From Methanocella sp. PtaU1.Bin125 (GTDB taxonomy: Archaea > Halobacteriota > Methanocellia > Methanocellales > Methanocellaceae), in the NCBI GenBank assembly GCA_002067315.1, contig MVRA01000185.1, forward strand, positions 1 to 64,000: a stretch of DNA of 64,000 nucleotides, in the 5' to 3' direction. Position numbers and translations under genes: made by a program. The notes beneath the pieces are model-generated. The model did no database searches and was not told where the DNA came from. It was given only the letters and a program-made list of their open reading frames with translations. Numbering within the stretch: the stretch's first letter is position 1; every line of letters begins with the position of its first letter. Below, piece after piece: positions 14,423 to 57,758 of the stretch.

Positions 14423-15151
14423 ATGCACTGCAGGACCGTGGCTATGATCTTATTCTCGTTGATAGCTATGGCATTATTCACCGGCACCGCTGCCGCGGGC
14501 ATCGACCTGCCGGCCACGGATACCACTTTGACGGTTGGCGAGTCCGGCGCCATACACGTCTGGGCGTTGCAGGCGGTCCCTGACAATCGCGAGGGCGCCA
14601 CGGACTATCATTTCGACCTGCAGAAGCTTTACCGGCCGGAGAACGTGCGCGTATACGACTTCGAGACCGGGAAGCCCTTGAAGTACGACGTCAGGGAGAC
14701 CGGCGAGGTATACGGCTACGACGTGCACTTCGACCGCCCCTACTATAACGGTTACCGGTTTGTCACGGAATACGACTGTCACAACCGGATCATTTACGAG
14801 GGCAACGGCGTGTACTCCCTCGGGATGAGAGCGGCTGCGGACGCGCGGACGATGGACCGTTCCTATACCGTGGTCCTGCCGCCGAAGAATTTCACTTATC
14901 TCGGGTATAACGCCGCCATGGATCATCCGGTATCCGAGACGGAGACGGGCGGCTATATCTATATCAAGTTCCATAACGTGAGCAACGCCGGGTCCGCCTA
15001 TGGCTGGGAAGTCCGGTTCGGGGCCACCGGCGTCGAAAGCGAGGCCCGGCAGATGAGCGCCCCGGCTTACGTGCTGCCCGTGCCGGGCATGTCTTTTATT
15101 GCGGCCGCGGCCGCGCTATTGATCGTTGCGATCGCTACGAGAAAAAGGTAG
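14423..15151 (+). CDS. Exported, membrane-anchored protein of unknown function
   Basis: The ATG at 14423 opens a clean signal peptide (TVAMILFSLIAMALFTGTAA, then A-G); the longer frame from 14339 would bury it, so I prefer 14423. The mature part is about 190 residues, rich in Tyr, Asp and Gly, with beta-strand character. A C-terminal helix (FIAAAAALLIVAIAT) and the tail RKR anchor it. It is followed after 20 bp by another exported protein, and both probably act at the cell surface. Family not recognised. Confidence 0.6.
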   Translation: MHCRTVAMILFSLIAMALFTGTAAAGIDLPATDTTLTVGESGAIHVWALQAVPDNREGATDYHFDLQKLYRPENVRVYDFETGKPLKYDVRETGEVYGYDVHFDRPYYNGYRFVTEYDCHNRIIYEGNGVYSLGMRAAADARTMDRSYTVVLPPKNFTYLGYNAAMDHPVSETETGGYIYIKFHNVSNAGSAYGWEVRFGATGVESEARQMSAPAYVLPVPGMSFIAAAAALLIVAIATRKR

Positions 15152-55015: not shown

Positions 55016-55026
55016 CTCTATATAGT
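55016..55026 (+). promoter_or_regulatory. TATA box upstream of the 48-bp array
   Basis: CTCTATATAG at about 55016-55025 is a good archaeal TATA box. Initiation about 25 nt downstream would start just before the tandem array (first unit 55060), so the array would be transcribed as a leader ahead of the MC1 gene at 55347. Confidence 0.4.
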
Positions 55027-55059
55027 CCGTTCCGTCATATCTAAATCCGGCTATGAAAA

Positions 55060-55300
55060 GGACGTTTGCCATCTGGCGCCCCGGGCGGGCCGCTAATGGC
55101 AACCGTAAGGACGTTTGCCACCAGGCAACCCGGATGGGTACTAATGGCAACCGTAAGGACGTTTGCCACCAGGCAACCCGGATGGGTACTAATGGCAACC
55201 GTAAGGACGTTTGCCACCAGGCAACCCGGATGGGTACTAATGGCAACCATAAGGACGTTTGCCACCAGGCGCCCGGTACGGGCCGAGGACGGCAATCGTT
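55060..55300 (+). repeat. 48-bp direct tandem array, five units
   Basis: GGACGTTTGCCA recurs at 55060, 55109, 55157, 55205 and 55253. The three inner units are identical or nearly so over all 48 bp; the first and last diverge. Between units lies the inverted repeat TGGCAA-N12-TTGCCA (starts 55097, 55145, 55193, 55241), and inside each unit TTGCC-ACCA-GGCAA. There are no unique spacers, so it is not CRISPR. The period of 48 keeps reading frames open on both strands, which explains several open frames here; none is convincing. Confidence 0.85.
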
Positions 55301-55346
55301 AAATATCGAAGCGGCTTTAGAGTAAGTCCAAAGGAGGCCGATTGTT

Positions 55347-55718
55347 GTGGTAAGCACATCGAACGACACCGAATCCAGAGACAAGAAGAACTTTGGTCTC
55401 ATTAATGAGAACGGAGAGGAAGTGGGAACGTACAGTGGTGCCCAGCCCAGGGACGCGGCGCTTAAGGCCGCTAACAGGGGCGTAACGAACATCATTCTCC
55501 GGGAGAAGGGCACCAAGAAACTCCATTACTTCAAGGGCAAGAGGGAACTGGTCCCTGCCCCGGCCAACGCTCCGGAATGGATCAAGAAAGCGGCAGCCAG
55601 GAACCAGGGTAAGATCTTCAAGGCCAACGTGGAGAAGGCCGGCACGGCCAACCTCGAATACAGCGAGCTCGAGCGGAACCCGAAGTCGCTCTTCAAGGTG
55701 CCTGCCACCAAGAAATAA
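55347..55718 (+). CDS. MC1 family chromatin protein
   Basis: Monomeric architectural protein that binds and sharply bends DNA, a main chromatin component in Methanosarcina relatives. NFGLINENGEEVGTYSG, then AQPRDAALKAANRGVTNIIL, REKGTKKLHYFKG and the proline loop APANAPEWI match MC1 in order. At 123 residues it is about 30 longer than the classical form because of a C-terminal tail (ANLEYSELERNPKSLFKV). AAGGAGG lies 9 nt before the GTG start. The 48-bp array sits directly upstream. Confidence 0.9.
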   Translation: MVSTSNDTESRDKKNFGLINENGEEVGTYSGAQPRDAALKAANRGVTNIILREKGTKKLHYFKGKRELVPAPANAPEWIKKAAARNQGKIFKANVEKAGTANLEYSELERNPKSLFKVPATKK

Positions 55719-56933: not shown

Positions 56934-57758
56934 TTGGACTACGTCAGCATCTTTCTCGATGAGAAGCGGCTGTCTTCCAGCAAGGGTACGATACGGCAGT
57001 ACGACCAGGTGCTGCGGAGCTTCGTGAAATATACGGGCAAGCCGCCTGAGGCCGTGGCGAGACAGGACGTGATCAGGTACCTGAATCACCTCATGTTCGA
57101 AAGAAACCTTTCGAAAGCCACCGGGTCGAACGTCCTCAGCGTTTTAAAGTCATTTTACCGGTTCATGGTGGAAAACGGTAACGTAGAGTCCAATCCTACA
57201 CGCGGCATCAGCAGCATCAGGCTGGACAAAAAGGCCCCGGTGTACCTGACGATACAGGAGATGCGTGACCTGATCGATACAGCTGTCGACCGCCGGGACC
57301 AGATCATCGTCCGGATGCTCTATGCGACGGGCGTCCGCATTTCCGAGCTGCTCAACATCCGCAAGCGCGACATCGACTTCGAGCGGCGGACGATTAAAGT
57401 CTTCGGAAAAGGCGCAAAAGAGCGCATCGTGCTCATCTCGGACGAGATGGCCGAAGAGCTGGCACAGTACTGCGAGCAGGAGCGTCTCGGGAACGAGGGC
57501 AGGCTTTTCGACCTGACGCCCCGCACGGTGCAGCGGGACATTAAAGTCCTGGCCCGCCGTGCCGGGATTACGAAGAACGTCACGCCGCACAAGCTGAGGC
57601 ACAGCTTCGCCACCCACATGCTCCAGAACGGCGGCAACGTGGTGGCCATCCAGAAGCTCCTGGGGCACGCTTCGCTTAACACCACACAGATTTATACACA
57701 CTACAACGTCGACGATTTGAAGGAGATGTACGGGCGCACGCATCCGCTCGGACACTGA
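56934..57758 (+). CDS. xerA: Tyrosine recombinase XerA
   Basis: Archaeal Xer protein that resolves chromosome dimers at dif. The N-terminal SAM-like DNA-binding domain (SSSKGTIRQYDQVLRSFVKY) is followed by the catalytic residues Arg in ATGVRISELLN, Lys in the beta-hairpin, HKLRHSFATHM, LLGHASLNTTQIY and the nucleophile Tyr in QIYTHYN. The length of 274 is typical of XerA and shorter than integrases of mobile elements. The TTG start follows GGGATAAAGA. I found no dif-like site beside it. Confidence 0.88.
   Translation: MDYVSIFLDEKRLSSSKGTIRQYDQVLRSFVKYTGKPPEAVARQDVIRYLNHLMFERNLSKATGSNVLSVLKSFYRFMVENGNVESNPTRGISSIRLDKKAPVYLTIQEMRDLIDTAVDRRDQIIVRMLYATGVRISELLNIRKRDIDFERRTIKVFGKGAKERIVLISDEMAEELAQYCEQERLGNEGRLFDLTPRTVQRDIKVLARRAGITKNVTPHKLRHSFATHMLQNGGNVVAIQKLLGHASLNTTQIYTHYNVDDLKEMYGRTHPLGH

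Follow-up and report, generated by a model that had tools for sequence, protein, structure and literature searches.

A palindromic 48-bp tandem array beside the MC1 promoter of a Methanocella genome, probably a lineage-specific intergenic satellite

Does a conspicuous palindromic repeat directly in front of a gene for a chromatin protein control that gene, or is it one of the satellites that its genome builds between genes? The question is raised by a tandem array in a 64-kb stretch of DNA from Methanocella sp. PtaU1.Bin125 (contig MVRA01000185.1, positions 1 to 64,000; hereafter the window). Tandem Repeats Finder (TRF) reported the array at 55058-55270 with a period of 48 bp, 4.4 copies, 93% matches, and a score of 354, the highest of any tandem array in the window; a decayed fifth unit extends beyond this core up to the promoter of the downstream gene (Table 1). 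A preliminary description of the locus, made from the sequence, had counted five units, three of them nearly identical, in front of an MC1 gene, and both points were confirmed: units U2 and U3 are the same, U4 carries one substitution, and the downstream product matches PF05854. Directly 3' of MC1 is a gene for a small KGG-motif stress-type protein (PF10685; 55810-55986), and blast matches to the DNA of this gene region were found near MC1 in three relatives (L002, L003, and L021). An archaeal XerA tyrosine recombinase (NF040815, E = 1.9e-86) is encoded at 56934-57758, 1.2 kb downstream of MC1, and no link between it and the array was found.

Table 1. Positions of the array, its promoter and gene, and two dispersed array families (window coordinates unless a locus or contig is named)
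Feature	Position	Strand	Remarks
Upstream TATATA	55019-55024	+	Sequence
Unit 1 (U1)	55064-55112	+	49 nt; diverged middle (GGCGCCCCGGGCGGGCCG)
Unit 2 (U2)	55113-55160	+	Inner unit; identical to U3
Unit 3 (U3)	55161-55208	+	Inner unit; identical to U2
Unit 4 (U4)	55209-55256	+	Inner unit; single G-to-A change (CCGT to CCAT)
Unit 5 (U5)	55257-55304	+	Decayed; 3' end merges into core promoter
Dyad copy 1, TGGCAACCGT-AAGG-ACGTTTGCCA	55097-55120	.	Pattern search
Dyad copy 2	55145-55168	.	Pattern search
Dyad copy 3	55193-55216	.	Pattern search
Dyad copy 4, one mismatch	55241-55264	.	Pattern search
MC1 core promoter, BRE-like AATC + TATA element GTTAAATAT	55294-55306	+	Sequence and position kept in three orthologous loci
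Shine-Dalgarno AGGAGG of MC1	55332-55337	+	Aligned in same-genus and one same-family relative
MC1 chromosomal protein gene	55347-55718	+	GTG start, 123 aa; PF05854, E = 2.7e-23
22-bp family sites	L184:3326-3472, L192:17389-17493, L155:101-228 and 14525-14605, contigs C172, C173, C50, C43, C46
~23-bp family sites	L156:1-98, L192:3951-4055, contigs C49, C80, C123

The GC content of the array is 60%, that of the intergenic DNA bordering it 43-44%, and a codon-based gene model places 55058-55270 outside coding sequence. A coding reading was rejected, as a Pfam search gave no match and the open frames shift between units because of the 49-nt length of U1. The number of copies could have been altered by assembly, since the genome is in 219 contigs. 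The outer units share a GGCGCCC..CGGGCCG middle that the inner units U2 to U4 lack. TTGCC-ACCA-GGCAA, which the preliminary description had placed in every unit, is present in U2 to U4 only; U1 and U5 have GGCGC in its place. Judged from this pattern, the outer pair probably keeps an older form and the inner form would have spread later; the near-identity of U2 to U4 bears out the recent expansion of the inner units that had been proposed.

The same description had units joined by TGGCAA-N12-TTGCCA, and this motif is indeed perfect at four junctions (starts at 55097, 55145, 55193, and 55241); with up to two mismatches allowed, it has 9 matches in the window against 1.8 expected. Each full junction forms a 24-bp dyad whose arms are complementary at 9 of 10 positions. 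In dinucleotide-preserving shuffles of a single unit, the dyad score was reached in 53 of 2000 cases, which is modestly beyond chance, and 1 of 60 shuffles had as good a hairpin energy. That the dyad recurs four times follows from duplication of the unit.

To locate the array relative to the MC1 promoter, we compared the window with the orthologous MC1 loci of a congener (L002) and two other genera of the family (L003 and L021). At all four MC1 loci, that of the window included, the start codon is preceded by a BRE-TATA sequence of the form AANN-GTTAWATAT at a distance of about 40 nt; the window has AATC-GTTAAATAT, and the other three have AACT-GTTAAATAT, AACC-GTTATATAT, and AATG-GTTATATAT. 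With this conserved core promoter at its 3' end, the array precedes BRE and TATA, abutting BRE exactly, and is not part of a leader; the earlier placement between a TATA box and the MC1 ribosome site had to be given up. The upstream TATATA at 55019-55024, for which no counterpart was seen in relatives, may be an extra promoter. At the other end of the MC1 upstream region, the stretch from the last in-frame stop to the conserved MC1 fold in the congener (L002, about 1480-1500) contains no ATG, GTG, or TTG, and neither does that from the core promoter to the MC1 fold in L003 (same family; reverse strand, about 1840-1850). In both, the GTG start of the window is matched in the alignment by an ACG that follows the Shine-Dalgarno sequence (GGAGG) at 8-9 nt, suggesting a putative non-canonical ACG start codon for MC1 conserved in these two species.

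The position of the promoter bears directly on the possibility of a structured RNA, in which a transcript of the array, either an antisense RNA or a long leader of MC1 driven by the TATA at 55019, would act as tandem hairpins. The TATATA at this position and a minus-strand fold with a z-score of -5.76, in which G-U pairs stand where the plus strand has A-C mismatches, are consistent with it. However, the plus strand does not fold better than shuffled sequence (z = -1.16), the array precedes the conserved promoter, no promoter for an antisense RNA is apparent, an Rfam search of the array gave no match, and a good fold is trivial, by construction, for any tandem array of dyads. The leader RNA suggested earlier is thus disfavored by the promoter position and the sense fold, and we consider a structured RNA of either strand quite improbable.

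The main rival to a satellite is an upstream activating or operator array, in which a dimeric helix-turn-helix regulator would bind the 24-bp dyads cooperatively and contact TFB/TBP at the BRE, so that copy number would tune MC1 dosage. Methanogens have activators that bind multiple sites upstream of BRE (PMC5512572), and the repeated sites immediately upstream of BRE/TATA that mark EarA- and Ptr2-type promoters are found here as well. EarA has four repeated sites that directly precede BRE and TATA at the fla promoter of Methanococcus maripaludis (PMC5512572), and the Ptr2 work cited there describes multiple sites upstream of BRE at the rubredoxin 2 promoter of Methanocaldococcus jannaschii. 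The four intact dyads of the MC1 array follow each other in 48-bp steps, the center of the last lying 50 bp upstream of the TATA center; the divergence of U1 is limited to the linker and spares the dyad arms; and in U5 a degenerate half-site, cGGCAAtCGT, which overlaps BRE beside the TATA element, is retained though its surroundings have changed. The likeness has limits: the EarA sites are 6 bp long, their activator is known, and mutants have been tested (PMC5512572), and Ptr2, as described in the same source, is a known activator that recruits TBP, whereas the MC1 array consists of 24-bp dyads that do not recur elsewhere in the genome beyond chance and for which no binding protein is known.

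If the dyads were regulator sites, a regulon would be expected; across the own genome and the three relatives, they are neither kept at orthologous promoters nor recurring. Outside the array, a dyad with up to three mismatches occurs once in the own genome, once in the congener, and in neither of the other two genomes of the order; a half-site combined with a TATA element, and the TTTGCC-N4-GGCAA pattern, gave counts not clearly above controls. Furthermore, 48 bp corresponds to 4.6 helical turns, which would put neighboring sites on different sides of the helix, and relatives have the same promoter without the array. The cooperative operator of the preliminary description is still the strongest competitor, but with no recurrence of its dyad above chance level in genome or order, we regard it as doubtful.

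Autoregulation is another proposal: MC1 would repress its own promoter by binding bent or cruciform DNA formed by the array. This would fit the preference of MC1 for four-way junctions and distorted DNA (PMC6776556) and the ability of the repeated 10-bp dyads to form hairpins. The best match of the array to the SELEX consensus AAAAACACACMCCCM is only 8 of 15 positions, a level reached by 99.8% of 251-bp windows and so no more than background; the MC1-binding array that had been suggested has no support from the preferred sequence. In addition, the 10-bp arms contain a mismatch, the weak sequence specificity of MC1 (PMC6776556) implies that an array of sites is not needed, and no array lies upstream of the orthologues or of the paralogous MC1 gene. 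We consider this explanation very improbable. The paralogous gene in the own genome does have a palindromic tandem array of its own, GAATGT-TGC-ACATTC in 2.8 copies, about 25 bp past the gene end (L161:3874-3926 = L019:1894-1946), which is possibly a coincidence or related to termination.

Direct repeats in tandem are also a feature of iterons and origins, which had been raised as a further option. The single Cdc6_C (Orc1/Cdc6) match of the own genome is on another contig (C58), with no initiator gene near the array, and the complete congener genome has its MC1 locus at 0.19 Mb, a long way from its two Cdc6_C matches at 1.79 and 1.21 Mb; the chance that the array is an iteron-like or origin-like site is, in our estimation, negligible.

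Comparison with relatives was the first check that the preliminary description had called for, and it would have abandoned a regulatory role had the array been absent from all relatives and neither bound nor transcribed; the first part, absence, is what was found. None of the three other genomes of the order (the congener and the two confamilial genomes) has the array, although all three keep the MC1 locus with its core promoter. We also retrieved ten MC1-bearing loci, most of them from Methanocellales, from a large genome collection, and none of the 8 upstream regions inspected had a comparable array. A candidate single-copy ancestor in the congener, a GTTTGCC that precedes the TATA element by about 46 bp, was rejected, as the alignment was not significant (251 of 2000 shuffles were as good). 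No other copies of the array beyond chance were found in the own genome; blastn searches of plasmids and phages gave short, weak matches only, and two exact 17-mer matches in IMG/VR were unrelated sequences without the array.

We next asked how unusual such an array is in its own genome. The same repeat search and codon-based gene model were applied to 1.25 of the 3.24 Mb of the own genome (39%) and to 0.8 Mb of the congener; the gene model was home-made and misplaces some gene boundaries. This census found 33 non-coding tandem arrays in the own genome, or about 26 per Mb of sampled DNA, and 14 in the congener. Arrays of the own genome in intergenic regions of known orientation were divided into 9 convergent, 4 divergent, and 16 same-strand cases, against 7.1, 6.0, and 15.9 expected from intergenic length (chi-square P = 0.56), and the arrays therefore show no promoter preference. 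Comparable non-coding arrays being common and without promoter bias, the claim that the MC1 array is the clearest undescribed regulatory candidate of the window was too strong. For five own-genome arrays, that of MC1 included, both flanks lay in the sampled congener DNA, and TRF listed an array at none of the five sites there. In the part of the own genome that was sampled, no other non-coding array has as high a TRF score or as long a period as that of MC1.

Two families of shorter arrays are dispersed through the own genome (Table 1). The 22-bp family (CRRYSSWGGYYGCYCGTRTGTA) has 32 matches there and the 23-bp family (GSYCGATCTAAGRGACCC) has 16, and neither has any match in the three relatives or in controls. 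In the 22-bp family, the arms vary and stay complementary (CAGC-GCAG-GCTG, CAAC-GCAG-GTTG, and CAAC-CCAG-GTTG, each followed by YCGTRTGTA). The neighbors of the two families, among them SRP19, NUDIX, DHDPS, and JAB proteins, have no common function. Kinship of the 48-bp unit with either family was not supported.

The congener and two other genomes of the family keep the MC1 promoter but lack the array; taken together with the high background of arrays and the lack of promoter preference, this leads us to conclude that the MC1 array is probably a lineage-specific intergenic satellite that grew beside the promoter of this gene. Its copies run head to tail and the inner ones are nearly identical, as expected of a satellite, and absence from three relatives with all five orthologous congener sites empty agrees with species-specificity and rapid turnover. 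Non-coding satellites are already known for Methanocella, and the MC1 array is one of many in its own genome: a survey of prokaryotic non-coding satellites reported long-repeat families, called rare in prokaryotes, in Methanocella conradii (PMC6749651). By description, its family Fam_27_37_5 appears similar in forming short, species-specific, non-coding head-to-tail arrays in the same archaeal family, and differs in having a 37-bp unit at several loci, whereas the MC1 array is a 48-bp unit with a dyad at a single locus.

For such a satellite, a GC-rich promoter-proximal segment with a short dyad would have been duplicated first and then expanded to five 48-bp units, presumably by replication slippage or unequal recombination; the three inner units would have been homogenized recently while the outer units decayed. 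Arrays of this kind would come and go at many intergenic sites of the lineage, and the end of this one at BRE/TATA would be happenstance. A dedicated regulator would not be needed to explain the array, which we infer to have no dedicated function; it may incidentally influence MC1 transcription, through spacing, DNA flexibility, or chance sites next to BRE. Against a satellite stand the top TRF score and longest period in the sample, the exact abutment on BRE, a dyad and hairpin beyond most shuffles, and the kept half-site of U5. A recently evolved control element tunable by copy number, in which a putative dimeric regulator on the 24-bp dyads would let the repeat number, possibly variable among strains, set MC1 dosage, seems to us unlikely.

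A striking repeat before a chromatin gene must thus be weighed against the array background of its own genome. With about 26 arrays per Mb and two dispersed families present in no relative, this lineage appears to build intergenic satellites actively; should repeat number prove to tune MC1, the locus would exemplify the control of archaeal chromatin by a satellite.
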